Shown here: positions 3,242 through 25,884 of the stretch, one piece after another
Numbering within the stretch: position 1 is the first letter of the stretch
How the letters are laid out: each line of letters starts with the position of its first letter
Source: Pseudonocardia hydrocarbonoxydans
GTDB lineage: Bacteria; Actinomycetota; Actinomycetes; Mycobacteriales; Pseudonocardiaceae
DNA: 64,000 nt
NCBI RefSeq assembly: GCF_006539565.1
Contig: NZ_BJNG01000016.1
Span: 124,001-188,000 of the forward strand
Reading direction: 5' to 3'
Program-made: the position numbers and the translations under genes
The notes under the pieces: model-generated
What the model was told of the DNA's origin: nothing
Seen by the model: only the letters and a program-made list of their open reading frames with translations
Databases searched by the model: none

Positions 3242-3439
3242 CTCGGCCCTCCTCGAAGTCGTGGTGTGTTGTCCACCAGATCGCGTTCAGGACACTCTGC
3301 CGTTATCCGCGGGGCACCGGGATCGCTCGATCGTGTCGTCTCTCGCGGACGGTGACCGATCGTGATCGTCGCGGAGCCGCCCCCGGGACTGTCGGACCCC
3401 CGCTCTAGCGTGTGCCCATCCGATCGGGAGGGGGTCGCC

Positions 3440-9960: not shown

Positions 9961-11804
9961 CCGCCGCACCCGGTGTCGAGACCGATCCGCACGACGCGCG
10001 GTTCGTCCACGGCGGAGACGGCCTGCTCGCCGCGTTCAACGCGGCCGGCGTGCTCGACGCCGCCGACGTGCACACCGCCGAGCGGGTCGGCGGGCTCGGC
10101 GGCGAGCCCGACGAGGCGGTGCTGCTCGCGCTCGCGCTGGCCGTGCGGGCGGTGCGGCTGGGGTCGGTGTGCGTCGACCTCGCCGCGGCCGACCGCACGG
10201 TGCTGGGCGAGGGCGACGAGCTCGTCGACGTCTCGGCGCTGCCGTGGCCCGAACCCGGCCCATGGCACGACGCCTGCCTGCGCAGCCCGCTGGTGGCCGA
10301 CGGCGCACAGGCGCCGGCCGGTCGGCCGCTGCGGATGGTGGCGGGACAGCTCTACCTGGAGCGGTACTGGCGCGAGGAGGAGCTGGTGCGCCTCGCACTG
10401 CGCGAGCGGGCCGCCGCCGCGCCGCCGCCGCACGACCTCGACGCCCTGCGCACCGGGCTCGACGCACTGTTCCCCGACCCCCGCGCGCTGCGCCAGCGCC
10501 AGGCCGCCGCGGTGGCCTCGCTGCGGCGGGTCACCGTGCTGGCCGGCGGGCCGGGCACCGGCAAGACCACCACCGTCGCCGCGCTGCTGCGGCTGCTGCT
10601 CGCGCAGCCCGGCCCGCCGCTGCGGGTCGCCCTGGCCGCACCCACCGGCAAGGCGGCCGCGCGGCTGCAGGAGGCCGTCAGCGGCGACCTGCCCCCGGAG
10701 AGCCGCGGGCGGGTCGCCGAGGCGTCCACGCTGCACCGGCTGCTGGGCTGGCGCCCCGGCGGCGGGTCCGGGGTGTTCCGGCACCACCGCGCGCAGCGGC
10801 TGCCGTTCGACGTCGTGGTGGTCGACGAGACCTCGATGGTGTCGCTCACGATGATGGCGCGGTTGCTCGACGCCGTCCGCCCGGACGCGCGGCTGGTGCT
10901 CGTCGGCGACCCCGACCAGCTCGCGTCGGTGGAGGCCGGTGCGGTGCTGGGCGACCTCGCCCGCGCCGCCGGGCGGCCCGAACCCGCCCTCGACGCCGCC
11001 CTGGCCGCGCTGGGCCTGCCCACCGGGGTCGTGCACGGCGTCGTCACCCTCGACCACACCTGGCGCTTCGACGGCGCGATCGCCGACCTGGCCCGCGCGG
11101 TCCAGCGGGGCGACGCCGACGCCGCGGTCGCCGTGCTGCGCCGGGGCGACCCGCAGCTCGCCTTCGCCGAGACCGCATCGGGCGCCGCGACCGCCGGGGG
11201 CGGCGACACCGACGGGACGAGGGCCGACGTCGTCGCGGCCGGCCGGGCGCTGGCCGACGCGGCGCGGGCGGGCGACGTCGACGCCGCGGTCGCCGGTCTC
11301 GACGCCCACCGGGTGCTGTGCGCGCACCGGCGCGGACCCTACGGGGTGGCGCGCTGGACCGCCGACGTCGACCGGTGGCTGCGCGGGCCGGGCCGCGACG
11401 CCCGCGAGGCGTGGTACCCGGGCCGCGCGGTGCTCGTCACCACCAACGACTACGACGCGGGCCTGTTCAACGGCGACACCGGCGTCGCCGTCGAGACCCC
11501 CGACGGCCTGCGCGTCGCGTTCGCCCGCGGCGGGCCGCCCACGCTGTTCGCCCCGTCACGGCTCTCCGAGGTCACCGGCGTGCACGCGATGACCGTGCAC
11601 CGCGGGCAGGGCAGCCAGTTCCGGCGGGTCACCGTCGTACTGCCCCCCGCGGAGTCGCCGCTGCTCACCCGGGAGCTGCTCTACACCGCCGTCACCCGGG
11701 CCCGGGAGTTCGTGCGGGTCGTCGGGTCGGAGGAGGCCGTCCGGGCCGCGGTGGGCCGCCCGGTCGCCCGCGCGAGCGGGCTGCGGCACCGGCTGGACTC
11801 CTGA
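9957..11804 (+). CDS. recD: Exodeoxyribonuclease V subunit alpha, 5'-3' helicase (RecD)
   Basis: RecD is the 5'-3' superfamily 1B helicase motor of RecBCD. The 615-residue product contains Walker A AGGPGTGKTTTVAALLRLLL (Lys203), motif II VVVDETSMVSLTMMARLL, motif III VLVGDPDQLASVEAGAVLGDL-type residues, and the C-terminal 2B/SH3-region motif MTVHRGQGSQFRRV followed by LLYTAVTRAREFVRVVG. The N-terminal domain that docks on RecC is present. The GTG start lies inside the last codons of recB with a 4-base overlap. The gene ends 112 bases before the convergent HEAT-like gene; that gap has short CCCGGG inverted repeats but no convincing strong terminator. Confidence 0.95.
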   Translation: MTAAPGVETDPHDARFVHGGDGLLAAFNAAGVLDAADVHTAERVGGLGGEPDEAVLLALALAVRAVRLGSVCVDLAAADRTVLGEGDELVDVSALPWPEPGPWHDACLRSPLVADGAQAPAGRPLRMVAGQLYLERYWREEELVRLALRERAAAAPPPHDLDALRTGLDALFPDPRALRQRQAAAVASLRRVTVLAGGPGTGKTTTVAALLRLLLAQPGPPLRVALAAPTGKAAARLQEAVSGDLPPESRGRVAEASTLHRLLGWRPGGGSGVFRHHRAQRLPFDVVVVDETSMVSLTMMARLLDAVRPDARLVLVGDPDQLASVEAGAVLGDLARAAGRPEPALDAALAALGLPTGVVHGVVTLDHTWRFDGAIADLARAVQRGDADAAVAVLRRGDPQLAFAETASGAATAGGGDTDGTRADVVAAGRALADAARAGDVDAAVAGLDAHRVLCAHRRGPYGVARWTADVDRWLRGPGRDAREAWYPGRAVLVTTNDYDAGLFNGDTGVAVETPDGLRVAFARGGPPTLFAPSRLSEVTGVHAMTVHRGQGSQFRRVTVVLPPAESPLLTRELLYTAVTRAREFVRVVGSEEAVRAAVGRPVARASGLRHRLDS

Positions 11805-11916: not shown

Positions 11917-14900
11917 TCACTCCGGCGCCGTGACGACCCCGTTCGCGGCGGCCCCTACGTCGGGGTCGGGGTGGGCGCGCAGGGCGTCGAGCCGCCGCAG
12001 CCAGCCCGCCGCCCACCCGGTGGCCGGACCGACCGCCGCCACCAGCGCGACGGCGAGCAGCCCGGCACCCGGGCCGTCGACGGCGGCCGCCGCGTCGACC
12101 CCTGCGGCGGCGTCGGCGGGCTCCCAGCCGGTGGTGTCGATCCCCGGGCCCGCGGCGAGCGCGGCCACCGGGCGGTCGGCGACGAGCCCGGCCAGTGCCA
12201 CCAGGTCGGGGACCAGGCCCGGCCCGGGGCCCACCAGCACGGCGAGCAGGCGGGCCGCGGCGGGCACCGTCTCCGGGTCGGCGGCCAGAAGGGCGGCGAC
12301 CTCCCGCACCGGGCCGGGGGTGCGCCGCGCGACCGTGCCCTGCGCGGCCAGCCCGTCGACGATCCGGGCCAGCCGTTGCCCCGCCGGGCGGTCGCGCCGT
12401 GCCCCGGGCGCCGGTCCGGGCACGGGGGCGGCGGCGTGCAGCGTCGCGACGGCCACCGGCACCAGGTCCGGCAGGACCGTCCAGACGTCGGGGCGCAGCG
12501 CCGTGGCGGCGGCGGCCCGCCAGGTGGCGGTGCCGCGCAGGTCGGTGAGCGCGGTGAGCAGGGCGTCGCGGGCGCCCGGGTCCCACGGCACCCAGTCCCC
12601 GACGGCGGCGAGCGCCGCGCGGGCGACGTCCGGCTCGGGATGCGCGACGACCCTGCGGACGAGCCCGGCGTGGCGCGCACGCAGGGCGGGCGCGGTGCGG
12701 GCGGGCGACGCGGCGAGCACGGCGAGTGCGAGGTGCCGGTCGCCGTCACCGGCCCGCGCGAACACCTCGAGGACGCGGTCGTCGGCGAGCCAGGGGCGCA
12801 GCGCCGACAGGACGGCGAGCCGCACGTCGCGGTGCTCCCCCGGCCGGGCCCATGCGGCGAGGAGCGTGTCGAGGGCGCCGTCGGGGCGGAACACCCGCTG
12901 CCAGCGCGCCAGCTCCTTGCGCGCCGTCACCTTCACCGGCACCTCCGGGACGGCGAGCAGCTCCGCGAGGCGGGCGGGCGCGACGTCGCGGGCGCACCGC
13001 GCGGCGGCGGGCAGGGCGACCCGGGCGCGGTCGGTGCCGATCTCGGGCAGCAGCCGCGCCAGGCCCTCCTCCGGTGCCCCGGCCCGGCCGAGCGCGGTGA
13101 GGGCCGCTTCCGCGACGAGCACGTCGGGATCGGCCGTCAGGTCGTCGACGCCGGTGGGGTCCAGCTCCGCGAGCCGGGCCGCGAGCCGGGCGCGGCGGTG
13201 GCGCACCAGCCCGGGATCGGCGAGCGCCGCCCGCAGCAGCCCCCGGTAGGTCTCGATCTGTGCCGGGCTCCAGCGCCGCAGGTCGCGGGCCCGCAGCTCG
13301 GGCAGCCACCACGCACCCCGGGTGCCGAACCGCCCGCGCAGCCGCCGGCCGGCCCGGTCGAGCACCCGTGCGGGGCGCCGGCGCACCAGCACGGCCAGCA
13401 CCGGCGGCAGCGTGATCGCCGAACGGTCCCGGGCGACGAGCTCCTCGGCGCGTGCGAGCCGGGTGCCCGGCGCGTCGAGCCAGGCCGCCACGGCGCGGCG
13501 CTGCACCCGGTCGTCGCGGACGGTGGTGGCCTCGGCGAGCAACTCCTGCAGCTCCGGGATGCCTCGGGCCCGCCTGCCCAGCCCGGTGGCCAGGCCGAGC
13601 ACCGCGGTCGGCTCACCGCGGCGCAGCGCGTCCCGCAGCCGCGGCAGCACCCGGGCGACGACGGCCCGCTCCTGCCCGCGCGGGAGCGCGCGCAGCGCCG
13701 GTCCCAGCAGGGCGTCGTGACGCCAGGCCCCCAGCCGGTCGATCGCGTCGAGCGCCCACCCGGCGACGGCCGACCCGTCCGGCCAGGGGTGCCCGAGCAG
13801 CCCGAACGCCACGCGGTGCAGCGCCGCCCGCGACGCTGCGGAGGTGTCGCCGGCGTCGACGGCGGCGGTGACCAGGGCGTCGAGCGCGGGCAGCACCGCG
13901 GCCTCGACGAGGGCGGGGCGGACCCGCGCGAGCGCGGCGAGCAGCCGGGCGCGCACCGGGTCCTGCTCGTGGGCGACACGGCGCAGCCCGGTGAGCACGG
14001 CGGTGAGGGTGCCCGGGTCGCCGGTGGCGGCGCCGGCACGCACCAGCAGCTCGTACCCGGCGGCGCGCCGCTCGGCGTCGGCGCTGCGGGTGGCCTCCTC
14101 CAGGACCGGCCGCGCATCGACGAACGGCAGCGACGCGCTCACCCGCAGCGTCGCCGCCGGGTCGTCGCGCACGGCCGGGAGGTCGAGCATCCGCCGGGCC
14201 TCGGCGTGGCGGCGGGCGTGCGGCAGCCGGGCCAGCTCGGCGTCGGACAGCACGTCGAGGGACCGGTCGCGCCCGGCGTGCGCGAGGTCGTACACCGCCT
14301 CGCGGCGGCGCGGCGGGAGGGCGTGCAGGACGGTGCGCAGCAGCCGCACGTCGGGGCCCGACTCCCGCAGCAGCGCACCGAGCTCGGCGTCGGGCAGCGC
14401 GGTGAGCCGGACGCGGGCCGAGCGGCCGGGCAGCCGCGTGGCGAGCTGCCCGACCCGCTCCGGTTCGGCGCGGACGAGCGCGGCCGCCCGCCCGGCGTCG
14501 ACGGCGAGCAACCGGTGCAGCCCGTGCAGCAGCACGGGCGGCAGCGGGCCGGTGAGCAGGCGTTCGGCGAGGTCGAGCACCACGTCGGGCCGCCGCCGCA
14601 GGAGCGCGCCGAGCAGCCCGGCCGACCCCTCCCACCACGATCGCCGCCGCTCGGGCCCGCGCTCCGCCAGCTCCGCACGCGCGTGGGCGGCGACCGCCTC
14701 GGCGTGCCGTCCGACCAGCGCACCCCAGCTCGTGACGGCGTGCGCGAGGCCCGGCAGCGCACCCGCGACCACGTCGGGCGAGCACCCGGGCAGCACCGCG
14801 GCGGCCTCGCCGTCCCCCCACCGCTCCCGCACCGCCGGGAGCAGCGCGTCGGCGACGTCCTCGTGACCCCCACGGCGCAGCCGCGCCGCGACGCGCGCAC

Positions 14901-15210
14901 GGTCGGCGAGCGAGCCGTGCGCGGCGACGGCGGCCAGCGCGGCCCCGGGCAGCGCGGCGGCGCGCAGCGCCCGTGCCCGGACACCGGGGTGGGGCGACCC
15001 GGTGGCCGCGGCGAGGTGTGCGGAGTCGCCGCAGGCCACCGCCATCGTGACCGCCAGGCCCGCCGCGTGGGCGTCGCCCGCGCCGAGCTCGGCCAAGAGG
15101 CGGGCCCGGGTGCCGGCGTCGGCGGACCGGGCCGTCGCCACGACGCGGCGCAGCCGCTCGTCGGGGTCGAGCCGGTCGACGTCGGCGAGCAGCCGGGCGG
15201 CGGCACTCAT
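11917..15210 (-). CDS. Large HEAT-like alpha-helical repeat protein coupled to the NurA-like gene
   Basis: This 1097-residue protein has no recognisable catalytic motif. It is built almost entirely of alanine/leucine/arginine-rich helical pairs, such as HPGVRARALRAAALPGA and PEPDVARAALAAVGDWV. The DPxVRxxA-type spacing is typical of HEAT/armadillo solenoids, which act as binding scaffolds. There is no signal peptide or membrane helix, so it is cytoplasmic. ATG at 15210 overlaps the stop of the NurA-like gene (ATGA), making it the last gene of a coupled sbcD-sbcC-nurA-like operon. A role as accessory or scaffold of that DNA-end complex is inferred from context only. It could instead be a general solenoid regulator. 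A much longer open frame upstream is rejected because it runs antisense-shifted through the NurA-like gene. Confidence 0.82.
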   Translation of the reverse strand: MSAAARLLADVDRLDPDERLRRVVATARSADAGTRARLLAELGAGDAHAAGLAVTMAVACGDSAHLAAATGSPHPGVRARALRAAALPGAALAAVAAHGSLADRARVAARLRRGGHEDVADALLPAVRERWGDGEAAAVLPGCSPDVVAGALPGLAHAVTSWGALVGRHAEAVAAHARAELAERGPERRRSWWEGSAGLLGALLRRRPDVVLDLAERLLTGPLPPVLLHGLHRLLAVDAGRAAALVRAEPERVGQLATRLPGRSARVRLTALPDAELGALLRESGPDVRLLRTVLHALPPRRREAVYDLAHAGRDRSLDVLSDAELARLPHARRHAEARRMLDLPAVRDDPAATLRVSASLPFVDARPVLEEATRSADAERRAAGYELLVRAGAATGDPGTLTAVLTGLRRVAHEQDPVRARLLAALARVRPALVEAAVLPALDALVTAAVDAGDTSAASRAALHRVAFGLLGHPWPDGSAVAGWALDAIDRLGAWRHDALLGPALRALPRGQERAVVARVLPRLRDALRRGEPTAVLGLATGLGRRARGIPELQELLAEATTVRDDRVQRRAVAAWLDAPGTRLARAEELVARDRSAITLPPVLAVLVRRRPARVLDRAGRRLRGRFGTRGAWWLPELRARDLRRWSPAQIETYRGLLRAALADPGLVRHRRARLAARLAELDPTGVDDLTADPDVLVAEAALTALGRAGAPEEGLARLLPEIGTDRARVALPAAARCARDVAPARLAELLAVPEVPVKVTARKELARWQRVFRPDGALDTLLAAWARPGEHRDVRLAVLSALRPWLADDRVLEVFARAGDGDRHLALAVLAASPARTAPALRARHAGLVRRVVAHPEPDVARAALAAVGDWVPWDPGARDALLTALTDLRGTATWRAAAATALRPDVWTVLPDLVPVAVATLHAAAPVPGPAPGARRDRPAGQRLARIVDGLAAQGTVARRTPGPVREVAALLAADPETVPAAARLLAVLVGPGPGLVPDLVALAGLVADRPVAALAAGPGIDTTGWEPADAAAGVDAAAAVDGPGAGLLAVALVAAVGPATGWAAGWLRRLDALRAHPDPDVGAAANGVVTAPE

Positions 15211-16184
15211 GCCGGGGCCGGCACGCCCGCGGCCCGGCGCAGCGCCCGGTAGAGCAGCGCGGGCTCGCCCAGGCGCCGGCGCAGCGCACGCTCCAGGCCG
15301 GCGATCGGGTAGAGGTTCTGCGGCGCGCGGGAGTCCTTGTAGGCGACCGAGGCGAACCGCGGGAGCGTGACCTGGCTCAGGTCGGCCAGCGCCACCGCCA
15401 GCTCGACGGGCACCTCGCCGCCGCACTCGATCCGTACGATCCCCGCCCACGGCGCGCCCGCCGGACCGGGCAGCCGCAGGTACCAGGTGTGGCGGTGCAG
15501 CGCGCGGTCGCTCTCGGGCTGCTCCAGCCGGAACACCGGCGTGCGGCGGCCCGGGCCCAGCGCGGCGACGACCCCGCCGAGCGCGGGCGGCAGGTAGGTG
15601 CGCGCGTGCGTCTTGACCAGCCCGATCGCCCGCGGCAGGTGGAGGCGGCCGAGCGCCCCGTCGACGACGACCAGGTCGTCGTCGCCGCCGTGCGCGTCGC
15701 GGACCGCCGCGGCGACCAGCAGCTCGGTCTCCTGCATCCGCGTCTGCACCGCGACGCTCAGCGCCACGCCGGGGTCCTGACCCGGGCGGCCGGGCTCGAC
15801 GCGGGTGCAGGCGTAGGTGCCCGCCGGGGTGACGACGTCGGCCCCGTCGGCCGAGCTGGTGACCAGCGAGCGGCGCACCCGCGCCTCCACCAGGTGCGCG
15901 CCGTCGTCGTCGCAGCAGCACACGACGCCGGCCGCGTAGGACGCGCACAGCGCCGGTGACGCCGTGCCGTCGCCCTCGTCGACCCACACCTGCGCGTCGG
16001 TGCGCCGGACCCCGTCGACGAACAGCACCCGCGACGGCGCGACCAGGCCGGGCTGCGGCTCGACCGGCCCCCAGTCGTCGGCGGCCCGCTCCAGCCCGAC
16101 CACCGCCTCGACCCGCGAGGGCTCCAGGTCGGTGCCGACACTGGTGCCGTAGGACGGGTCCCACGGGTCGACGGTGAACTTCAC
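15207..16184 (-). CDS. nurA: NurA-like 5'-3' nuclease candidate
   Basis: The 325-residue product matches the layout of NurA, the nuclease partner of the HerA translocase that resects DNA ends. An early acidic strand VLFVDGVRRTDAQVWV (Asp57) resembles NurA motif I (hhDGSxR). A second strand DLVVVDGALGRL (Asp175) resembles the hhxDGxL motif. These are followed by IGLVKTHARTYLP (Lys191) and a C-terminal YKDSRAPQNLYPIAGLERAL segment. The histidine often seen near the C-terminus of archaeal NurA is not obvious, so the assignment is provisional. The GTG start overlaps the sbcC stop and the TGA overlaps the next gene's ATG. Being encoded between Rad50-like and HEAT-like genes, with a HerA-like gene nearby, strongly supports a DNA-end role. 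Confidence 0.68.
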   Translation of the reverse strand: MKFTVDPWDPSYGTSVGTDLEPSRVEAVVGLERAADDWGPVEPQPGLVAPSRVLFVDGVRRTDAQVWVDEGDGTASPALCASYAAGVVCCCDDDGAHLVEARVRRSLVTSSADGADVVTPAGTYACTRVEPGRPGQDPGVALSVAVQTRMQETELLVAAAVRDAHGGDDDLVVVDGALGRLHLPRAIGLVKTHARTYLPPALGGVVAALGPGRRTPVFRLEQPESDRALHRHTWYLRLPGPAGAPWAGIVRIECGGEVPVELAVALADLSQVTLPRFASVAYKDSRAPQNLYPIAGLERALRRRLGEPALLYRALRRAAGVPAPA

Positions 16185-19100
16185 AGGTTCTCCCGCGCGA
16201 CCGACGACGTGCGCTGGTCGCGTGCCACCCGGAACCGGACCGGTACCCGCTCGGCCAGCGCCGGGACGTGCGTGACGACCCCGACCATCCGGTCGCCGCG
16301 GGCCGCGAGGTTCTCCAGGGTGCTCGCGACGACCTCCAGGTTGGCCTCGTCGAGCGTGCCGAACCCCTCGTCGAGGAAGATCGACTCCAGGCGGGCCGCG
16401 CCGCGCGCCGCGAGCCCGGACATCTGCGCCGACAGCGCCAGCGCCAGCGCCAGGCTGGCCTGGAACGTCTCCCCGCCGGAGAGGGTCTTCACCGGGCGGC
16501 GCGCGTCGGCGTCGGCGTGGTCGATCACCAGGAACTCGCCGTGGTCGTGGGTGAGGGCGAACTGCCCGCCCGACAGCTCGGCGAGGCTCCGGGAGGCGTC
16601 GGCGACCAGCGCGTCGAGCGCGGAGGCCACCAGCCAGCGGGGGAACCCGTCGGAGCGCAGGAGCCCGCCGAGCATCTTCGCGACCTGCCCCGCCTCCTCG
16701 GCGGCGTCGCGGTCGGCGGCGAGACCCGCCGCGGTGGCCCGGCGCTCGGCCAGCCGCGCGAGCACCCCCCTGGCCCGCTCGACGGCCGCGGCCACCGTGG
16801 GGCGCGCCGCCCCCGCGTCGGGCCGGGGGTCGGTCGCGGCGCCGGCCGCGGACGGCGGGCGGGACGGCCCGGTCCCGGCGGGCAGCAGTACCAGGTCGTG
16901 GGCCGCCAGGTCGTCGACGATCGCGCGGACGGCGGCGTCCCGCGTCTCCCGGGCGGTGCGGGCGGCGGCGTCGGCCGCGGTCCAGGCGGTACGCCGGTCG
17001 GCGGCGGCCGCGGACGCCCAGCCCGCGAGCACGCCCCAGGCGGCGCCCAGGTCGTCGCCGGTGACGGCGGGGGCACCGAGGGGCACCAGCGGGTCGCGCG
17101 CCGCGCGCAGCGCCGACCAGGCCGCCCCGACCTCCTCGGCCACCTGCGCGGCGTCACGTTCCGCCGCGCGCAGGGCCGTGCGGGCCCCGCGCAGCGCGGC
17201 GTCGGAGGAGCGGGCGGCCTCATCCAGCGCGGTGCGGCGCTGCAGCGCGCGGGCGGCGTCGGCGTCGGAGGGGGCTCCCTGCAGCGCCGCGCGCAGCTCG
17301 CCGAGGCGCGCCTGCACGCCGTCGACGGCCCCGCGGGCCTCCTGCTCGGCGCGGGCCGCGGCGGTCTCCTCGGCGCGCCGGTCGGTGGCGGCGCGGTCGG
17401 CGGCGTGCAGCGCGCTCCCCGCGGCGTCGGCCTCCCCCTCCGCCGCGGCGACGGCGGCCCGGGCGTCGCCCAGCGCGGCGTCGCGGTCGGCGGCCTGCCC
17501 GGACGCCCAGGTGACCAGCGCCGTCCAGCCGGTGACGACGTCGTCGTCGGGGACCGCGGGGGCCCCGAACGGCACGAGCGGATCGCGGGCGGCGCGCAGC
17601 GCGGCGGCCGCGCCCCGGGTGTCGGCCCCAACGGCCTCGACCTCGCGCGCCTCGGCCTCGCGGGCACGGCGCGCGGTGCGGACCGCGGCGTCGGCGTCGC
17701 GGACCGCGCGCTCGGCCTCGTCGAGCGCGGCGAGGCGGTCCTCGACGGTGGCGGCGTCGGGCTCCGGGCGCAGGCGGGCCACGGCGGCGTCCAGCCGGTC
17801 GGCCTCGGCCGCGGCACGCGCCGCCGCCGCGGCGAGCGCCGCCTCCTCGGCCCGGGCGGCCTCGTGCGCCGCCGCCGCGGCCGTGACGGCCTCCTCGGCC
17901 CCCGGGTCGGCGGGGGCCCCGGCCGGCGGCAGCGCGGCCACCGCCTGCGCGCACACCGGGCACGGCTCCCCCACGGCGAGCGCGGGGCGCAGGGCCGCGG
18001 CCAGGTCGGCCCGCTGGCCCTCGGCCCGGCGGGCCTCGGCGTGGTCGAGCGCGTGCCGGGCCGTCCGCACCCGCTCGGCGGCGGCCGCGACGGCCCGTTC
18101 GGCGTCGGCCCGGGTCGTGGCCGCCACCTGCTGCTCCGCGGCGAGCGCCGCGCGTTCGGCGTGCTCACGGCGCGCCTGCTCCAGCGGGCCGCGCGCGGGG
18201 GCCGCGTCGAGCGCCTCACGGGCGCGGGCGTCGACCGCCTCGGCGGCGGCGAGCGCGGCGTCGGCCTCGGCCAGCGCCGCGGCGGCGGCGCTGCGGCGCC
18301 GGCCCAGCGCGTCGAGCCCGGCCGGGACCGCGAGGGCGCGCAGGCCGTCGCGTTCGGCGATCAGGCGGCGGACGGTGTCGGCCGCCGCGGCCGCGGCCGT
18401 GGCGGCGGCGTCGCGGGCGGCGCGGGCGGCGTCGAGCGCGGTGCGGGCGTCGGCGGCGTCGCGGGCGGCCGTGTCGTAGACGGCGAGCGCCTTGGCGTGC
18501 CGGTCGCGCAGGCCCGGCAGGTCGCCGGTGAGCGCGGCGAGCTCGGCGTGCCGGGTGCGGGCGAGCTCCAGCGGCCCGCGCTCCGGCGCCGCGGCCAGTG
18601 CGTCGCGGGCCGCGGTGTCGGCCTGCTCGGCCGAGGAGTGGGCGGCGCCGGCCGCGGTGAGGGCCGCGGCGGTGGCGGCACGGCGGGCGTCGAGACCGGC
18701 GAGGTCGTCGGGAGCGGTGAGCGCCGCGAGCACGGTGCCCTCGGCGCGGATCCGCGCGGCGTCGGCCTCGGCCTCGGCCTGGGCCGCGGCGGCCGCCTCG
18801 ACCTGCGGCACCAGCGCGTCGACCCGCCCGGCCAGCGCCACCAGCGCCTCGACGCGCTCCCGCGCGGCCGCCTCGGCCTCCGCCGTGGCGTCGGCGTAGC
18901 CGCCGAGCTGCTCGGCCAGCACCTCGGCGCGCTGGCGCTGCGCGGCGGACTCGCTGTTGGCCTCCCGCGCGATCTGGTCGTAGAGGCCGAGCCCGAGGAT
19001 GCGCACCAGCTTCTCCTGGCGCTTGCGGGGCTCGGTGTGCAGGAACTCCGCGAAATCGCCCTGGGGCAGCACGACGCAGGTCGTGAAGTCGCCGAAGGGC

Positions 19101-19528
19101 AGCCCCAGCAGCTCCTCCACCGCCGTGGTGACGCCGCCGGCGCCGTCGGCCAGCGGCTCGGTCTCCTCGTCGACGCCCGCCGTGCCCGACGGGTCACGCA
19201 GCCGCTCCAGCCGCGCCGAGCGCACCGACACCGACCCCGACGCGGCCCGGCGCAGCTCCCGCGCGGCCACGTAGCGCGCCCCGCCGACGTCGAACACCAG
19301 CTTGACCGTGCCCCGCCCGGCCGTCGGCGCCAGCGCCAGCGCCACCGTGCGCTGGTTGTCCCAGCGGGGCACCGAGCCGTAGAGGGCGAAGGTGATCGCG
19401 TCGATGATCGTGGACTTGCCCGACCCGGTGGGCCCGACCAGCGCGAAGTACTCCGCGTCGGCGAAGTCGACGACCGTGGGCTCGCGGAACGCGGCGAACC
19501 CGTCGAGCTCCAGGCGGACCGGCCTCAC
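16181..19528 (-). CDS. sbcC: SbcC / Rad50-like SMC-family ATPase
   Basis: SbcC pairs with SbcD as an ATP-driven nuclease complex that opens hairpins and blocked DNA ends. The 1115-residue product has Walker A ALVGPTGSGKSTIIDAITFA near the N-terminus. Long alanine/glutamate/arginine-rich coiled coils flank a zinc-hook GEPCPVCAQ (Cys523 and Cys526) at mid-protein. The C-terminal half holds signature VKTLSGGETFQASLALALA and Walker B LESIFLDEGFGTLDEANL. All ATPase parts look intact. The GTG start overlaps the sbcD stop (GTGA), and its own stop overlaps the GTG of the NurA-like gene. The longer upstream frame is rejected because it overlaps sbcD out of frame. Confidence 0.95.
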   Translation of the reverse strand: MRPVRLELDGFAAFREPTVVDFADAEYFALVGPTGSGKSTIIDAITFALYGSVPRWDNQRTVALALAPTAGRGTVKLVFDVGGARYVAARELRRAASGSVSVRSARLERLRDPSGTAGVDEETEPLADGAGGVTTAVEELLGLPFGDFTTCVVLPQGDFAEFLHTEPRKRQEKLVRILGLGLYDQIAREANSESAAQRQRAEVLAEQLGGYADATAEAEAAARERVEALVALAGRVDALVPQVEAAAAAQAEAEADAARIRAEGTVLAALTAPDDLAGLDARRAATAAALTAAGAAHSSAEQADTAARDALAAAPERGPLELARTRHAELAALTGDLPGLRDRHAKALAVYDTAARDAADARTALDAARAARDAAATAAAAAADTVRRLIAERDGLRALAVPAGLDALGRRRSAAAAALAEADAALAAAEAVDARAREALDAAPARGPLEQARREHAERAALAAEQQVAATTRADAERAVAAAAERVRTARHALDHAEARRAEGQRADLAAALRPALAVGEPCPVCAQAVAALPPAGAPADPGAEEAVTAAAAAHEAARAEEAALAAAAARAAAEADRLDAAVARLRPEPDAATVEDRLAALDEAERAVRDADAAVRTARRAREAEAREVEAVGADTRGAAAALRAARDPLVPFGAPAVPDDDVVTGWTALVTWASGQAADRDAALGDARAAVAAAEGEADAAGSALHAADRAATDRRAEETAAARAEQEARGAVDGVQARLGELRAALQGAPSDADAARALQRRTALDEAARSSDAALRGARTALRAAERDAAQVAEEVGAAWSALRAARDPLVPLGAPAVTGDDLGAAWGVLAGWASAAAADRRTAWTAADAAARTARETRDAAVRAIVDDLAAHDLVLLPAGTGPSRPPSAAGAATDPRPDAGAARPTVAAAVERARGVLARLAERRATAAGLAADRDAAEEAGQVAKMLGGLLRSDGFPRWLVASALDALVADASRSLAELSGGQFALTHDHGEFLVIDHADADARRPVKTLSGGETFQASLALALALSAQMSGLAARGAARLESIFLDEGFGTLDEANLEVVASTLENLAARGDRMVGVVTHVPALAERVPVRFRVARDQRTSSVARENL

Positions 19529-20679
19529 GTCGAGATCCGGTCGTGCAGCGTGCGGAACAGCGACTCGACCCGCGGGTCGGCGACCCCGCGCGTGCCCAGG
19601 TACTCCGAGAACAGCTCGGCCGGGCTCCGCTCGGCACCCCCGCCAGAGGGCCGCGACGCCTCGGGGACGGCCGCGAACTCCGGGTCGATCCGCACCTCCA
19701 GCGCGTTCGGCAGCACCGCCGTCACCTCCTCCCGCAGCCCGGCCCGCGCGGGCTCGGTCACCCACACCCTCAGCCAGTCGTCGCCGACGGTCTCAGACAG
19801 CACCGACAGTTCCGCGACGGTGCCGCGCACGGTGCGCAGCCGGCGCCCCGAGGTGACCGGGATGTCGGTGATCCGCGCGGGCGTCGACGGGGTGGCCTCG
19901 ACCAGGCAGACGACCGGCTCGTTCTCCTGCTCCCCGAAGTCGACGGCCAGCGGCGCCCCCGAGTAGTGGACGGGGCACGGTGCCTCCATCCGCTGGCGGC
20001 GGTGCAGGTGTCCGAGCGCCACGTAGTGCGCCTCGATCGGGAAGATGCTCGCGGGCACCGCGTACTCGAAGATCGACTGGGCGGTGCGCTCGCCGCCGCC
20101 GAAGCGGCCGTTGAGCACGGTCAGGTGGGCCATGACGAGGTTGACCCCGCCGTCGTCGAACCCGGCGGTGAGGGAGGCGAGGACGTCGCGCAGGTTCTGG
20201 TCGTAGGCGTTCGTGTTCTCCCCGGCGGTGCGCGCGACCAGCTCGGCGGCGCGCACGGCGTAGCGCTGCGACAGGAACGGCAGCACGGCGACGGTGACGC
20301 GCTCGCCCGTCGACCGCGCGGTGAACCGCACGACCCCGCCCTTCTCCGCGGTGCGCACCTCGCCGACGAGGGTGATCCCGGCCTCCTGCGCGAGCGGGCG
20401 GTAGGCGTCGAGGGCGCGGGCGTGGTCGTGGTTGCCGGCGATGGCGACGACCTGCGTGCCCTCCTTCGCCAGCCCCATCAGCGTGCGCACGACCAGCCGC
20501 TGCGCCTCCGCGGAGGGGGCCGCGGTGTCGTAGAGGTCGCCCGCGACGAGCACCGCGTCGACCTGCTGCTCCCGGGAGATCGCGACGATCTCGCGCAGCA
20601 CCTGCTCCTGCTCGTCGAGCCGGGAGCGGCCCTTCAGCGTCTTGCCGACGTGCCAGTCCGCCGTGTGCAGGAAGCGCAT
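19525..20679 (-). CDS. sbcD: SbcD / Mre11-like exonuclease subunit
   Basis: This is the calcineurin-like metallophosphoesterase nuclease of the SbcCD complex. The 384-residue product starts MRFLHTADWHVG, giving the DxH metal ligands Asp8 and His10. Further motifs are VAGDLYD (Asp48), IAGNHDH (Asn83, His84, Asp85), VMAHLTV and ALGHLHRRQ, so the two-metal site is complete. The C-terminal capping region follows. The ATG at 20679 starts the conserved sequence; the longer open frame upstream is antisense to the VOC gene's promoter region. It is the first gene of a four-gene operon in which every junction is a 4-base overlap. The 93-base gap to the divergent VOC gene must hold the operon promoter. 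Confidence 0.96.
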   Translation of the reverse strand: MRFLHTADWHVGKTLKGRSRLDEQEQVLREIVAISREQQVDAVLVAGDLYDTAAPSAEAQRLVVRTLMGLAKEGTQVVAIAGNHDHARALDAYRPLAQEAGITLVGEVRTAEKGGVVRFTARSTGERVTVAVLPFLSQRYAVRAAELVARTAGENTNAYDQNLRDVLASLTAGFDDGGVNLVMAHLTVLNGRFGGGERTAQSIFEYAVPASIFPIEAHYVALGHLHRRQRMEAPCPVHYSGAPLAVDFGEQENEPVVCLVEATPSTPARITDIPVTSGRRLRTVRGTVAELSVLSETVGDDWLRVWVTEPARAGLREEVTAVLPNALEVRIDPEFAAVPEASRPSGGGAERSPAELFSEYLGTRGVADPRVESLFRTLHDRIST

Positions 20680-20772
20680 GGGGCGACGATCGCACCCTTC
20701 GGCCGACGCGTTCTGTCGGGGGTCGGTGCCACTCTGTCCGCCGTCGCCCGTCCCCGACCGAGGGAGTCCCCG

Positions 20773-21543
20773 ATGCCCACCCGTGACACCGCATGGCCGG
20801 CCGGCACGCCGTGCTGGGTCGATCTCGCAGTCCCCGACCTGCCCGCCGCCACCGCCTTCTACGGCGCGGTGCTGGGGTGGGAGTTCGTCGACACCGGGGA
20901 GGAGTTCGGCCACTACACGCTCGCGCAGGTCGGCGGCCGCAGCGCCGCCGCGATCGCTCCCGTCCAGCCCGGTCAGCCATCCGGATCGACGCTGTACCTG
21001 GCCAGCGACGACGTCGACGCCACCGCGAAGCTGGTGGCCGAGCACGGTGGCACGGTCGCCGTCGAGCCGTTCGACGTGTCCGGCATGGGAAGGATGGCCG
21101 TCGCGCTCGACGCGTCCGGCGCCGCGTTCGGCATCTGGCAGCAGGCCGGGATGATCGGGGCGGAGGTCTACAACGAACCCGGCTCGCTGATCTGGGAGGA
21201 CGCCCGCCTCACCGACGCCGCGGCCGGCCAGGCCTTCTACGCCGCGGTGTTCGGCCACACCTTCGGCGCCGTGCCCGGCGCGCCCGACGACTACGTGACC
21301 TTCGCCGTCGACGGCGAGGTCGTCGGCGGCATGGGCGGCATGATGGGCGCCCCCGAGGGCACGCCCAGCCACTGGCTGCCCTACTTCATGGTGTCCGACG
21401 TCGACGCCGCGCTGGCCGCGGTCGGCTCGGGCGGCGGCACGGTGCTGATGGAGGCCACCGACACCCCGTTCGGCCGGATGGGCATCGCGACGGACCCCTT
21501 CGGCGCCACCTTCGCCCTGCACGGCGGGATGCCGGCCGCCTGA
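20773..21543 (+). CDS. Two-domain VOC (glyoxalase/bleomycin-resistance fold) protein
   Basis: The 256-residue protein carries two VOC domains. The first is about residues 10-125 (PCWVDLAVPDLPAATAFYGA ... MAVALDASGAAFGIWQ) and the second about 135-255 (SLIWEDARLTDAAAGQAFYA ... GRMGIATDPFGATFALH). It resembles the actinobacterial Cfp30B-like antigen/hydroxylase group, whose substrate is uncertain. Each domain ends in the usual DPxGAxFxL-type strand, but the metal ligands cannot be assigned with confidence. ATG at 20773 follows GAGGGAG at normal spacing. It is transcribed opposite to its neighbours and splits the HerA-like gene from the sbcD operon; nothing ties it functionally to DNA repair. 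Confidence 0.88.
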   Translation: MPTRDTAWPAGTPCWVDLAVPDLPAATAFYGAVLGWEFVDTGEEFGHYTLAQVGGRSAAAIAPVQPGQPSGSTLYLASDDVDATAKLVAEHGGTVAVEPFDVSGMGRMAVALDASGAAFGIWQQAGMIGAEVYNEPGSLIWEDARLTDAAAGQAFYAAVFGHTFGAVPGAPDDYVTFAVDGEVVGGMGGMMGAPEGTPSHWLPYFMVSDVDAALAAVGSGGGTVLMEATDTPFGRMGIATDPFGATFALHGGMPAA

Positions 21544-21864
21544 CCGCCGCACCGAGCCCGGGCGCGGGCCGGAACCGCCCACGGCGCGGCTCGTCGCACA
21601 CCTCGGCGCTCGTCGCACAGGTCGCGGCTCGTCGCACAGGTTGCGGCACGTACGACCGACCTGACGATGTGCGAGCACGGGCGGCGGGTGAGCGCGGGCA
21701 CCGGGAGGACGAACCGGCGCGCTCGCGCACACGTTCCCGCTGGTCGCACGTGCTCCGGTCCCTCGCACAGGTTCCACCCTGTGCGACCAGCCGCATCCCG
21801 TGCGACGAGCGCCGAGGTGGGCGCGGACACCGTCCACCCCGGTGCACCGGCGGGTGCGCGCGCG
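21544..21864. repeat. Intergenic repeat cluster of TCGCACAGG words
   Basis: This 321-base gap between the convergent VOC and HerA-like genes has no credible gene. CTCGTCGCACA words occur three times in direct order in 21588-21642. Further GTCGCAC/GTGCGAC words follow, and a hairpin lies at 21763-21786. The pattern matches the gap at 2484-2746, 19 kb away. It may be a REP-like family with terminator activity at this convergent junction. Confidence 0.65.
21763..21786. repeat. Hairpin, arms TCGCACAGG / CCTGTGCGA
   Basis: Nine-base perfect arms surround a 6-base loop, matching the arms of the hairpin at 2662-2687 but with a different loop sequence. Conservation of stem but not loop suggests the structure matters. 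It lies between convergent genes, where a bidirectional terminator would be expected. Confidence 0.72.
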
Positions 21865-23592
21865 TCAGAAGGGGGCGTCGTCGTCCACGCCGGACGGGAG
21901 GCGGGCGAAGGGGTCGCGCGGCGCGTGGCCGTTCGACCCGGCCGGGGTCCCCGCGCTCTCCGAGAGCCTCGTCGCCCAGGCCGGGAACGGGAACTCCACG
22001 GCCAGCGGCACCGGGATCTCCGGCTGCGAGACGAACATCGTGCCCGGTTTGGCGAGCACCGCCCGGGCCCGCTGCGACGGGGGGAGGAAGCCGTACTCGG
22101 GCCGGCCGGCCTCGGCGGGGTCGAGCCGCCCGACCACCTTGATCGAGGAGTTCGACACGATCCGCCGCTCGACCTCGCTCGCGGTCTGCTGCGCGCCGAT
22201 GAGGATGATGCCGAGCGACCGCCCGCGCTCGGCGATGTCGAGCAGCACCTCCTTGATCGGCGAGGACCCCTCCCGCGGGGCGTACTTGTTCAGCTCGTCG
22301 ATCATGGTGAACAGCAGCCCCGCCGCCCCGGCCTGCTCCTTGCGCGCGGTCTCCGCCGCCAGCACCACGCCGACGACGAACCGCTGCGCACGCTCGGGGA
22401 GGTTGTGCAGGTCGACGACCGTGACCTGCTGGTTCTCGGTGCTCACCCGCCGCCCCGGCGCGTCGGCGAGGTCGCCGCGGACGATCGTGCGCAGCGGCTT
22501 GAGCGAGGAGCGCAGCCGGCGCAGGAAGGCGTTGATCGTGCCGATGCCGGTGACGGGCCCGGCCCAGTCGCGGCGGGCGTCCTCGTCGGCGAGGCGGTCG
22601 GCCACGAACTCGACGAGCGCGTCGTAGCTGCGCAGCGTCTGTCCTTCCACGGTGACCGCGCCGTCGGCGGCGGGGGTGGCGATCCGCCGCAGCCGGGCCG
22701 CGACCTGGTGGATGACCATCGTGTACTGGTTGCGCTCGTCCTCGGCGTCGGCGAAGACGTAGGGCAGCAGCTCCCCGGAGCAGAACTCGGCCAGCGTCCA
22801 CCAGAACGCCGACACCCCGCTCGTGCGGCCGGTGACGTACGGGCGGCCGGACGGGTCGTCGGGGGTGGGCGGGGCGAAGAAGCCGGCGGAGGAGAAGGGC
22901 GCGGCGGGCAGGTCGAGGCGGGCGTAGCGGGTGCGCTGCTCGTCGTCGAGCCGGGCGTTGGCGTGGTCGAGGAACAGCAGGTCCTCGCCCTTGACGCTGA
23001 ACACCAGCGCCTTCGCGTTCACCGCCCGCCGCCCGAGCACCCCGGACCGGAAGATCGAGTAGAGCAGGAACAGCGCGAAGCTGGTCTTCGTCGCCACCCC
23101 GGAGATGCCGCTGATCGAGACGTGCCCGCCGCGGGTGCCGTCGAGGAACTCCAGGTTGACGTAGATCGGCTCGCCGTCGCGGCCGAGGCCGACGGGCACC
23201 TTCTGGTCCATCTTGTCGAAGTACAGCGCCTGGGCGCGCTCCAGCCCGGTGGCCCGGCGCACCGCCGCCCCGGGCACCGGCGGCACGTAGACCTCGGGCT
23301 CGACCCGCGTCGTCGTGACCTCGGCGATCTCCTGGACCTGCGCGGGGAGCACGCCGTCGTCGATGAGGAAGACGTCGGAGCCGTACTGGGCGCCCTCGTG
23401 CCGCGCCCGCACCTCGGTGACGACGCCGGAGGTCGTCACGGCGCCGTGCCCGGCCACCGACCGCTGGGTGAGGACCACGTCGTCGAGCTGCAGGTACTCC
23501 CCCGGACGCAACGCCACCGAGAACTGCAGCGGCGTGGAGTCCTCGGTGCCGACGACGAGACCGACGGACGGCGCGGGGGGCGGGGACGACAC
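21865..23592 (-). CDS. herA: HerA-like DNA translocase ATPase
   Basis: This 575-residue P-loop ATPase has the HerA/FtsK-type layout. An N-terminal beta-barrel-like region (about 1-140) carries SVALRPGEYLQLDDVVL. A variant Walker A, ISGISGVATKTSFALF (Lys169), has threonine replacing the usual glycine before the lysine. Walker B is LLFTMIDELNKYAPREG (Asp432, Glu433). The C-terminal stretch IILIGAQQTASEVERRIVSN is typical of HerA, where it contains the polar and arginine-finger residues. HerA hexamers pump DNA for the NurA nuclease during end resection. The GTG start at 23592 opens the recognisable sequence. The gene lies upstream of sbcD on the same strand, separated by the VOC gene and a repeat cluster, so it probably has its own promoter. 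Pairing with the NurA-like gene is inferred. Confidence 0.82.
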   Translation of the reverse strand: MSSPPPAPSVGLVVGTEDSTPLQFSVALRPGEYLQLDDVVLTQRSVAGHGAVTTSGVVTEVRARHEGAQYGSDVFLIDDGVLPAQVQEIAEVTTTRVEPEVYVPPVPGAAVRRATGLERAQALYFDKMDQKVPVGLGRDGEPIYVNLEFLDGTRGGHVSISGISGVATKTSFALFLLYSIFRSGVLGRRAVNAKALVFSVKGEDLLFLDHANARLDDEQRTRYARLDLPAAPFSSAGFFAPPTPDDPSGRPYVTGRTSGVSAFWWTLAEFCSGELLPYVFADAEDERNQYTMVIHQVAARLRRIATPAADGAVTVEGQTLRSYDALVEFVADRLADEDARRDWAGPVTGIGTINAFLRRLRSSLKPLRTIVRGDLADAPGRRVSTENQQVTVVDLHNLPERAQRFVVGVVLAAETARKEQAGAAGLLFTMIDELNKYAPREGSSPIKEVLLDIAERGRSLGIILIGAQQTASEVERRIVSNSSIKVVGRLDPAEAGRPEYGFLPPSQRARAVLAKPGTMFVSQPEIPVPLAVEFPFPAWATRLSESAGTPAGSNGHAPRDPFARLPSGVDDDAPF

Positions 23593-23667: not shown

Positions 23668-24252
23668 ATGACCGAGCCCAGGTTCGATCTCGGCTGGATG
23701 GACGACGTCATCCGGGGCCTGCACTCGCTGACCGGCGACCAGGTGCCCGCGCTGGAGATCACCCTGCTCGACGCGGTCGTCGACTGGCTGTTCTCCCCGC
23801 AGAACCCGCAGAACGCGAACCCCGAGGCCGGCTACGACGAGTCGCACGCGGGCACACTGGTCTCGACGATGTTCACCGCCGTCGACACCTCCCGGACGTT
23901 CCTGCCGCGGCAGGAGCCCGCCGTCACCGACGCGATCACCGCGGCCCGCACCCGCATCGTCGACGGGGCGCACGAGCTGTCCGCGCAGGGTCCGGAGGGG
24001 ATCTCGATCCTGGTGTCGCGGGCGATGCCCGCGGTGCTCGCCGAGCTGGGCAACAACTCCGGCGAGAAGGCCAAGCAGGCCCACGGCGTGTTCGTCTACC
24101 TGCTCTACACCCTCGCGCTGGGCACCCGCACCGAGCACGACACGGTCGTCATGGACGGGGTGGTCGAGGCGTTCGTCGGGTGGGACGGCGTGCTGCGCGG
24201 CGGGTACGTGCTGCCGTGGCGCCCGCTGCCGCCCTCGGACGAGCCCGCCTAG
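23668..24252 (+). CDS. Conserved hypothetical protein, 194 residues
   Basis: I do not recognise this family. The protein is soluble and mixed in composition, beginning MTEPRFDLGWMDDVIRGLHS, and has an asparagine-rich stretch SPQNPQNANPEAGYDESHAG and a helical C-terminal half. There is no signal peptide or membrane helix. ATG at 23668 follows GGGGAGGACGACG, an acceptable ribosome-binding site. It diverges from the HerA-like gene with a 75-base gap. Its TAG stop shares the CTAG tetranucleotide with the stop of the opposite ADP-ribosylglycohydrolase gene, leaving no spacer between the convergent genes. Confidence 0.8.
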   Translation: MTEPRFDLGWMDDVIRGLHSLTGDQVPALEITLLDAVVDWLFSPQNPQNANPEAGYDESHAGTLVSTMFTAVDTSRTFLPRQEPAVTDAITAARTRIVDGAHELSAQGPEGISILVSRAMPAVLAELGNNSGEKAKQAHGVFVYLLYTLALGTRTEHDTVVMDGVVEAFVGWDGVLRGGYVLPWRPLPPSDEPA

Positions 24253-25133
24253 CCTCCCGCCATCGCCACGAGGTCGTCCCCGCGCAACCCCGGCCACCCG
24301 TGCACGGCCCGCCGCCACTCCACCGGCACGGCCGACGCCCCGTACCGCGCCCCGAGCAGCGCCCCGGCGATCGCCGCGACCGTGTCGGTGTCGCCGCCCC
24401 CGCGCACCGCGGCCTGCAGGCCGTCGACCAGGGAGTCGGTGTGCGCGATCGCCGACCACGCCGCCTGCAGCGCCGAGACCACCCAGCCGTTGGTGGCGGC
24501 GAACGCGGACGGCTCGCGGCGCTCCGCCTCGTCGAGCCACCCGGCCCAGGCGGGGTCGACGTGCGGCAGCCCGACCCGGACGTCGAGCTCGCCGGTGCGC
24601 ACGGCGTGCGCGATCGCCAGGCACCACAGCACGCAGGCGTCGCCGGCCTGGCGGTCGTGGTGGGTCAGCGCGGAGACGGCCCGGGCCGCCTCGGCCACCC
24701 CGTCCGGCACGAGCGCGACCGGCCCGGTGCGCATCAGCGAGCCGTTGCCCGCGCTGCGCCCGGTCCGCGCGTGCACCCGCGTCGCGTGCTCGCGCAGGCG
24801 GGCGGCGGCCCCGGCCCGTGGGATGCCGTGCAGCGGGCCCAGCACCGCCGCGGTCTGGATGCCGACGTCGGGCGGCCCGGTGGCGTGCCAGGCCAGGAAC
24901 CCGTGGGCGACGGCGTCGAGCGCGGCCTCGGTGCGCAGGTCACCGGGCACCCGCGCGATGACGCACGCCATCTCGGTGTCGTCGCTCCACTGCCCGGGCG
25001 CGTAGTTGCCCAGCCCGCCGCCGAGCATCTCCGCGCGCTCCCCCAGCGCCCGGGCGCCCGCCTCGTACGGGACGCCGAGCGCGTCGCCGCAGGCCGCGCC
25101 CAGCAGCACCCCGGCCGGGCGGTCCGCGCTCAC
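24249..25133 (-). CDS. ADP-ribosylglycohydrolase (DraG/ARH family)
   Basis: Members of this family remove ADP-ribose from proteins, nucleic acids or small molecules using two magnesium ions. The 294-residue product shows the family motifs: N-terminal GAACGDALGVPYEAG, metal ligands GQWSDDTEMA, central SAGNGSLMRTGPVAL and C-terminal GGDTDTVAAIAGALLGARYG. All expected acidic metal ligands are present, so the enzyme looks active. The GTG start overlaps the stop of the ARPP-1 gene (GTGA), so the two are co-translated. Known family neighbourhoods link ARPP-1 to ADP-ribose handling. The substrate cannot be read from the sequence. Confidence 0.92.
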   Translation of the reverse strand: MSADRPAGVLLGAACGDALGVPYEAGARALGERAEMLGGGLGNYAPGQWSDDTEMACVIARVPGDLRTEAALDAVAHGFLAWHATGPPDVGIQTAAVLGPLHGIPRAGAAARLREHATRVHARTGRSAGNGSLMRTGPVALVPDGVAEAARAVSALTHHDRQAGDACVLWCLAIAHAVRTGELDVRVGLPHVDPAWAGWLDEAERREPSAFAATNGWVVSALQAAWSAIAHTDSLVDGLQAAVRGGGDTDTVAAIAGALLGARYGASAVPVEWRRAVHGWPGLRGDDLVAMAGG

Positions 25134-25867
25134 GCCGCCGCCCGCTCGTTGACCGCCACCGTGTGCACGGCGCGACCGTGCCAGTGCAGCACCGCCACGC
25201 GCGACCCCGGATCGGCGGCGAACCGGCGCGCGTGCCGGCCCAGGGTGGGCACCGGGCGCCGGCCCAGGGCGTCCAGCGCGGCCGCGTGCAGCAGCCCGTC
25301 CCAGACGGCGGCGAGCGTCGAGGGGGCGTCGAACACCTCCAGCAGCACCGGGCGCCCGGCGATCCCGACCAGCACCCCGCACTGGAACGGCAGCGGCGCC
25401 AGGCCCCTGACCAGCGCGGACGCCGCGGTATCGAGGTGGCGGACGGTCTCGAACAGCGACTCGCCCTCGCCGTAGCCCGCCACCCGCTCCCACACCTCCC
25501 GCTGCCCCCGCGCCGTCCGCACCGCGAGCGGCGCCCGGCGCCCGCCGCGCGAGTGCACCGCGGCACCGGACCACCGGGCCCGCTCCACGCACCGCACCGC
25601 CAGCGCCACCGACGCCCCCGGCTCCACCAGCACCGACCGCGCCGCCACCCGGTCCTGCCGACCCCCCGCCAGCAGCTCCCCCTCCAGCACCAGCGCGGGC
25701 CGCTCCCCCGGGTTGTGCACGACCAGCTCCCCGACCACGGCGTCCGCCCGCTCCGCGACGAGCACCCCGCCGAGCGCGTACCCGGTGTCGGCGACCGCGG
25801 CCCCGTTGAACACGGGGAAGACCGTCAGCGCACCCCGCACGACCGGGTTGCCCACGTGGACGTCCAT
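25130..25867 (-). CDS. ARPP-1 domain protein (DUF6569-like)
   Basis: The 245-residue product matches the ARPP-1 pattern (ADP-ribosylglycohydrolase-associated domain). A start LTVFPVFNGAAVADTGYALG is followed by VGELVVHNPGERPALVLEGE, the signature LLAGGRQDRVAARSVLV, and ALAVRCVERARWSG. The biochemical role of the family is unsettled; it occurs next to ADP-ribose-processing enzymes, as here. ATG at 25867 has AGGAGG eight bases upstream and is preferred to the GTG at 25876. It is the first gene of a two-gene unit with the glycohydrolase. It lies just downstream of the two palindromes at 25885-25928, which likely repress it. Confidence 0.85.
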   Translation of the reverse strand: MDVHVGNPVVRGALTVFPVFNGAAVADTGYALGGVLVAERADAVVGELVVHNPGERPALVLEGELLAGGRQDRVAARSVLVEPGASVALAVRCVERARWSGAAVHSRGGRRAPLAVRTARGQREVWERVAGYGEGESLFETVRHLDTAASALVRGLAPLPFQCGVLVGIAGRPVLLEVFDAPSTLAAVWDGLLHAAALDALGRRPVPTLGRHARRFAADPGSRVAVLHWHGRAVHTVAVNERAAA

Positions 25868-25884
25868 CCCGACCACCTCCTCGA

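Follow-up and report, generated by a model that had tools for sequence, protein, structure and literature searches.

A herA-sbcD-sbcC-nurA gene module in Pseudonocardia and other bacteria, a probable counterpart of the archaeal herA-mre11-rad50-nurA operon

A block of genes related to DNA-end processing was analyzed in a stretch of 64,000 nucleotides from Pseudonocardia hydrocarbonoxydans (contig NZ_BJNG01000016.1, positions 124,001 to 188,000), hereafter called the window. The genome measures 5.29 Mb, and the closest relatives of its SbcD in the tree described below are Pseudonocardia proteins. The block lies on the minus strand and encodes, in the direction of transcription, a HerA-type ATPase/translocase of 575 aa (21865..23592), the Mre11-like nuclease SbcD of 384 aa (19525..20679), the Rad50-like ATPase SbcC of 1115 aa with a central CxxC (16181..19528), a NurA nuclease of 325 aa (15207..16184) and a predicted HEAT-like alpha-solenoid protein of 1097 aa (11917..15210). 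The sbcD/sbcC, sbcC/nurA and nurA/solenoid junctions each consist of a 4-base overlap, as a preliminary description of the locus had reported, and the coordinates it gave for nurA and herA are correct. It had also placed herA just upstream of sbcD: the gene is indeed upstream and on the same strand, but it does not adjoin sbcD. A plus-strand glyoxalase/VOC gene outside the module (20773..21543, 256 aa; Pfam Glyoxalase, E = 1.1e-18; NCBIfam KbpA, 126.5 bits against a cut-off of 250) stands between the two, and herA is therefore probably a separate transcription unit in the window.

Both HerA and NurA of the window are related to the proteins of the Deinococcus HerA-NurA complex, whose structure is solved, and the predicted NurA fold concurs. 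HerA aligns with the Deinococcus chain 7f6d_B over residues 6-307 and 316-545 (E = 4.5e-139, 467.8 bits); the other solved relatives at E <= 1 are two HerA chains, organism not shown, with E = 0.15 and 0.26. Its scores are below the cut-offs of Pfam DUF87 (11.4 against 23.2 bits) and of the archaeal HerA model (12.1 bits for a cut-off of 800). The classical Walker A motif is GxxGxGK[ST]. The HerA P-loop does not follow this pattern and reads GISGVATKTS in the window, a string found identically in Deinococcus HerA; G[IV]SGxATKTS is present in all 101 HerAs longer than 500 aa at the operon loci introduced below. For NurA, a sequence search of solved structures gave chain 7f6d_H of the Deinococcus radiodurans HerA-NurA complex (E = 4.4e-22). 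The AlphaFold2 model (predicted local distance difference test, pLDDT, 80.8) has 7f6d_G as best structural match (E = 3.3e-20, template modelling score, TM, 0.67), followed by the Thermotoga protein TM1739 and by a chain of 8wfd (E = 2.9e-6), that is TdpAB, which we take to be a defence system. The Pfam NurA score is under the gathering threshold (15 bits against 21); since sequence and fold comparison both give NurA, we read this as a divergent NurA branch. D57 and D175, presumably the catalytic residues, are invariant across 14 sequences. NurA matches no PADLOC model, and the best PADLOC model for HerA reaches 37.8 bits (mad8), models named HerA remaining at or below 19.5 bits.

SbcD and SbcC are, to judge from their family models, bacterial in type. 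SbcD scores 195.7 bits with TIGR00619 (cut-off 77.65), and SbcC 236 bits with TIGR00618, under the cut-off of 478.5. The features expected of SbcCD were found, namely phosphoesterase motifs, the two ABC ATPase halves and the CxxC hook. At the operon loci, DxHxG, GNHD and GHxH are present in 96/96 SbcDs, and the central CxxC and LSGGE in 78/78 SbcCs examined. In PADLOC both proteins match only models of related families, with no known system. The term "archaeal-style" used in the preliminary description thus fits the gene set; it does not fit the bacterial-type SbcD and SbcC or the Deinococcus-like HerA.

The distribution of the genes was examined at the level of the class, of named genomes, of the genus and of the family. 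In the class sample (296 genomes; at most seven NurA or four HerA candidates were scored per genome, and distant relatives can escape), HerA was found at E <= 1e-20 in 17 genomes, all within the 21 that have a NurA match, and all 17 show the order herA-sbcD-sbcC-nurA. The other four NurA matches (G229, G253, G311 and G342) are weak or partial and are counted as negative; the loci of G229 and G253 were not retrieved. Twenty NurA loci were retrieved, from 16 other class carriers, two genomes of the family sample (G030 and G031) and two genomes with weak matches: the four genes follow each other on one strand in 18, and the remaining two contain only a NurA fragment or a weak match. A HerA scan of named genomes added 80 loci, the top-ranking ones among at least 546 relatives, so that genomes close to that of the window may be left out. 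All four genes are in order in 56 of these loci, and 21 reach the end of the sequence; the full set is not shown in three (L095, L104 and L142). NurA is present in the genomes of these three, and more generally in 10 of the 10 genomes checked for awkward named loci. Taken together, the 18 retrieved and 80 named loci are the 98 operon loci referred to here; five genomes occur in both sets and one Streptomyces strain occurs twice, which leaves 91 distinct HerA cores. Genes at these loci were called with a simple GC-frame script that sets ends automatically, so that a few of the unusual gaps reflect misplaced starts or frame errors. The archaeal-type operon is defined by four genes in one cluster, and such clustering is found here.

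The same association is seen within the genus of the window (62 genomes). NurA is strong in 38 genomes and weak in two (G368 and G369, counted as negative), and SbcD is over the cut-off in 41; all 38 genomes with strong NurA have SbcD, and 21 have neither. Of the 38 carriers, 28 have SbcD and NurA on one contig; for the other ten, the contig with SbcD terminates within sbcC or sbcD. HerA is also present in the three genomes that have SbcD but no NurA, and their sbcC is cut at a contig end. Given this pairing and these contig ends, the genus offers no sign of SbcCD being retained in the absence of HerA and NurA. The 13 draft genomes concerned (L265-L274 and L258-L260), with a contig break within sbcC or sbcD, show how readily assemblies divide the module. 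NurA occurs in 3 of the 60 genomes of the family sample. A clean empty site was looked for and not found: in six regions from non-carriers, the genes on the far side of recD gave no match to the window flanks. We conclude that herA-sbcD-sbcC-nurA is a real module, the genes being present or absent together (17/17 class and 38/38 genus genomes) and in a fixed order, as the preliminary description had supposed. It had named two outcomes that would speak against it, the lack of a NurA fold and genes that rarely travel together; for these four genes, the predicted fold is that of NurA and the genes do travel together.

The operon SbcCD also differs from native SbcCD by the lineage of its SbcD. SbcD is over the cut-off in 54 of the 60 family genomes, that of the window included, and G030 and G031 hold both a native and a module SbcD. 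In a tree of 67 SbcD sequences, whose bootstrap had not settled, the actinobacterial operon copies and one cyanobacterial plasmid copy form a single clade (support 98/87), and 32 native SbcDs of the family are set apart from it (support 100/99). Two plasmid SbcDs (L179 and L181) fall elsewhere on long branches. Two family SbcDs that branch beside the operon clade (L214 in G045, L217 in G022) are second copies, with no HerA or NurA in the 8-10 kb retrieved around them. Members of the window's family are scattered within the operon clade (L033 with L034; L117 with L122; Pseudonocardia), a pattern expected from transfer.

A second gene order and plasmid copies were also found. HerA relatives are present in six plasmid records, one of 11.85 Mb. 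SbcD and an SbcC-like gene stand beside HerA in five of the six (for L179 the SbcC-like assignment comes solely from the record's annotation, SMC family ATPase); a Nostoc plasmid record stops inside herA, with nurA in front. The order nurA-herA-sbcD-sbcC is seen on Sphaerospermopsis, Chlorohelix and Aulosira plasmids, the NurA match being weak in one, and thus spans cyanobacterial and Chloroflexota plasmids. The same permuted order occurs in a relative from the genus, G403, which carries, besides the main module, a second and divergent one (HerA 42%, NurA 33% identity; L256, contig C65); an SMC-like ATPase and a SngC-like helicase-exonuclease lie upstream of this copy and a phage-type integrase on its other side. 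On a Streptomyces plasmid the module adjoins TIGR02680/TIGR02678/DUF2397 genes, which we take to be Wadjet. One cyanobacterial plasmid with the module is typed conjugative, and a Chloroflexota plasmid carries it beside HEPN, TIR and ImmA genes. Marinitoga camini virus 1 (L182) has a nuclease annotated as "associated with Rad50/Mre11 complex" adjacent to HerA, with no SbcCD within the 10 kb shown. At four Streptomyces loci (L119, L121, L130 and L176, two of them from one strain), a helicase with "helicase associated" domains, whose Pfam matches were seen for L176, lies downstream of nurA.

We consider it likely that HerA, SbcD, SbcC and NurA constitute one horizontally transferable module for the processing of DNA ends, the bacterial counterpart of the archaeal herA-mre11-rad50-nurA operon. 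Core motifs are kept in SbcC, SbcD and NurA, and the HerA P-loop is unusual but invariant. SbcCD would recognize and open DNA ends that are blocked or form hairpins; the HerA ring would then take over and pump the duplex into the NurA dimer, which would cut it, degradation by HerA-NurA being processive. For the homologues, the accessible part of the literature describes a model of a HerA ring that pushes duplex DNA towards a NurA dimer (PMC5448004) and an interaction of Sulfolobus Mre11 with HerA (PMC2288612). In the window's genus the module most likely performs chromosomal end processing alongside RecBCD, since it provides the only SbcCD there: apart from the second module of G403, it holds the sole SbcD over the cut-off. 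A complete recC-recB-recD operon (3362-6646, 6643-9960 and 9957-11804, plus strand; Pfam Exonuc_V_gamma, RecC_C, UvrD-helicase and RecD_N), outside the module, converges on the solenoid-gene end of the block in the window, and 18 of the 38 genus carriers have RecC at no more than 15 kb from NurA. This proximity and the status of sole SbcCD favour a role in repair. We also considered RecBCD and the module as mutual replacements; RecC is present in 33/38 carriers and in 22/24 other genus genomes, which gives no sign of it.

Several points weigh against this interpretation. The opposite-strand glyoxalase/VOC gene splits herA from sbcD in the window, and the herA-sbcD gap exceeds 300 bp in 24 of 77 named loci, 20 of these 24 being from Pseudonocardia or Pseudonocardiales. 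Some motifs are not universal: the first DG motif pattern is found in 69/77 operon NurAs, the stricter GDxxD in 70/96 SbcDs and the stricter G[PA]TGSGK[ST] in 53/78 SbcCs. Defence neighbours and plasmid copies also suit the destruction of foreign DNA. Finally, a 2026 mBio paper argues, in the part accessible, that archaeal HerA-NurA may serve to degrade viral DNA and not to resect ends.

These last points lead to the strongest alternative, in which the module is mainly directed against phages and plasmids, locating incoming linear or replicating DNA and destroying it, as other pairs of HerA and a nuclease do in defence. We regard it as a serious possibility, although short of probable. Patchiness (NurA in 3/60 family genomes, HerA in 17/296 class genomes), transfer, plasmid copies and occasional Shango neighbours favour it, to which the resemblance of NurA to the TdpAB chain may be added. 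Shango genes stand beside the module in 3 of the 98 operon loci (L117, L038 and L131); in L117, SngC ends about 15 bp before HerA. Because SngA is rare (6/296 class genomes), this is far above the 0.008 adjacencies expected, or 0.38 if SngA were in every genome (Poisson, shared ancestry ignored). The SngC-like gene and the integrase that flank the permuted copy of G403 point in the same direction, as does a HerA remnant behind SngC in G070. The latter locus (L264) is a decayed Shango-HerA junction, in which the remnant (15764-15987, residues 8-81) lies about 250 bases behind SngC as two pieces that overlap.

Against this alternative, 95 of the 98 operon loci and eight further module loci have no Shango neighbour, and the difference between 3/98 operon loci and 0/32 control loci is not significant (Fisher, shared ancestry ignored). 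Among the five strong SngA loci of the class sample, one has the module and one the HerA remnant, and three have neither. General clustering of defence genes could explain part of the adjacency. The setting is fixed in Micromonospora: all 13 loci that have a scored gene downstream of nurA carry it on the nurA strand, at 50 bp or less in 12; in one of the 13 (L147) this gene is spermidine-synthase-like. The module SbcD is moreover, as said, the sole one in the genus outside G403. A broader count of defence-related neighbours was also made with PADLOC. It gave 58 families among 81 neighbour genes at 21 loci picked for long flanks (at most four genes per locus). Of two control sets of 79 genes each, the neighbours of native SbcD gave 1 family, and genes at arbitrary places in carrier genomes, chosen at round numbers, gave 8. 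Three genes of the single locus L117 supply 30 of the 58 families, and we therefore set these counts aside as proof of defence.

A bolder proposal would make the module a mobile immune system, in which SbcCD would sense the exposed or hairpin DNA ends or the replication intermediates of invaders and load HerA-NurA for degradation; it would exist in at least two gene orders, be paired repeatedly with Shango and have been kept as sole SbcCD by Pseudonocardia. We offer it tentatively and find it rather doubtful. If true, the archaeal operon would be recast as defence-derived too.

The preliminary description had further proposed that the solenoid protein is an added part of the machine. This protein matches no family at E <= 1 in Pfam, NCBIfam and PADLOC. 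Its AlphaFold2 model is almost all alpha (pLDDT 85.4, predicted TM score, pTM, 0.45), and the nearest solved folds are HEAT proteins (CAND1, karyopherins) with TM of about 0.2. It is thus predicted to be an alpha-solenoid, a superhelical fold of helix pairs, assigned to this class of fold and not to a subfamily because TM is low and pTM is 0.45. A complex of five parts with the HEAT protein as obligate subunit would agree with the ATGA overlap with nurA in the window and with the place of the gene in three other genomes of the genus, directly after nurA in two (G354, G378) and upstream of HerA in the third (G375). We judge it very unlikely, given that the gene is present in only 6 of the 62 genus genomes, compared with 38 for NurA; in two of these six, G355 and G395, it lies away from the module, and in the other four it is linked to it. 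No homologue was found in the sequence around the 98 operon loci, 58 of which span at least 3 kb beyond nurA; these counts led us to reject the solenoid as a conserved fifth subunit. No relative was confirmed in viral contigs. The low frequency in the genus, the variable place and the lack of a match at the operon loci indicate that the solenoid gene beside nurA is probably a recent accessory and not part of the core; the protein could perhaps serve as a scaffold. Still less can be said for a chance or convenience clustering of SbcCD with neighbours of no joint function, to which we give hardly any credence: SbcD alone is widespread in the family, but co-occurrence is 17/17 in the class and 38/38 in the genus, and the same genes recur in a second order in other phyla.

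Other genes of the window are mentioned for completeness. On the minus strand, 24249-25876 contains an ADP-ribosylglycohydrolase and an ARPP-1 gene with a 4-base overlap, adjoined by a gene for a protein with NYN and OST-HTH domains (26556-27656); this block is upstream of HerA in L083 too. A minus-strand gene at 27653-31069 encodes a protein of 1138 aa that carries an MTES_1575 REase domain, is weakly similar to helicases and matches the candidate defence models PDC-S37 and Hhe. The GmrSD_N protein encoded at 38788-41043 (minus strand), 15 kb from HerA, is defence-like and resembles HEC-05 and PDC-M55C. Around the module, KbpA-like glyoxalase genes turn up repeatedly, with a match in 15 operon loci; in Pseudonocardia loci their place varies, before HerA, between HerA and SbcD, or between SbcC and NurA.

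Earlier work has described the archaeal operon and the Deinococcus-Thermus pair; the actinobacterial module is apparently undescribed within the literature searched. No account of this module, of its plasmid forms or of its Shango neighbours was found in that literature, which most subscription papers and preprints lie outside. The role of HerA-NurA with Mre11-Rad50 is disputed, as far as the accessible sources go, between degradation of viral DNA and end resection. The bacterial form is variably present among close relatives, occurs on plasmids and sometimes beside Shango, in hosts that are easier to handle than hyperthermophiles. This natural presence and absence, together with the plasmids and the Shango neighbours, makes the choice between repair and defence testable in bacteria by deletion, transfer and phage tests.

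Compared with native actinobacterial SbcCD, the module uses the same protein families, but its SbcD forms a separate clade and G030 and G031 carry both. The defence systems Sir2-HerA and HerA-DUF4297 likewise associate a HerA-family ring with a nuclease partner, according to the part of PMC12977600 available; their nuclease partners are different, and the low PADLOC scores of the models named HerA set them apart from the present HerA. In Deinococcus and Thermus, nurA-herA is described, in the accessible text of the sources, as a two-gene operon or duet (PMC9960219, PMC12977600, PMC5448004). Among solved structures, our HerA and NurA are closest to the Deinococcus proteins, but the pair described has two genes where the module has four. 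The nearest published bacterial precedent found, again from partial text, is Oceanithermus profundus (Thermales), where sbcD and sbcC lie downstream of hepA (PMC5448004); the bacterial arrangement has thus been noticed at least once before. Lastly, herA, mre11, rad50 and nurA of Sulfolobus islandicus are named as one operon, and all four genes as essential, in the portion of PMC4351679 available. The likeness consists of the same four functions in one operon, the physical order in the archaeon being unchecked. The differences are that SbcD and SbcC are here of bacterial type, that HerA is far from the archaeal HerA model, and that genes essential in S. islandicus are absent from many relatives of the bacterial carriers.

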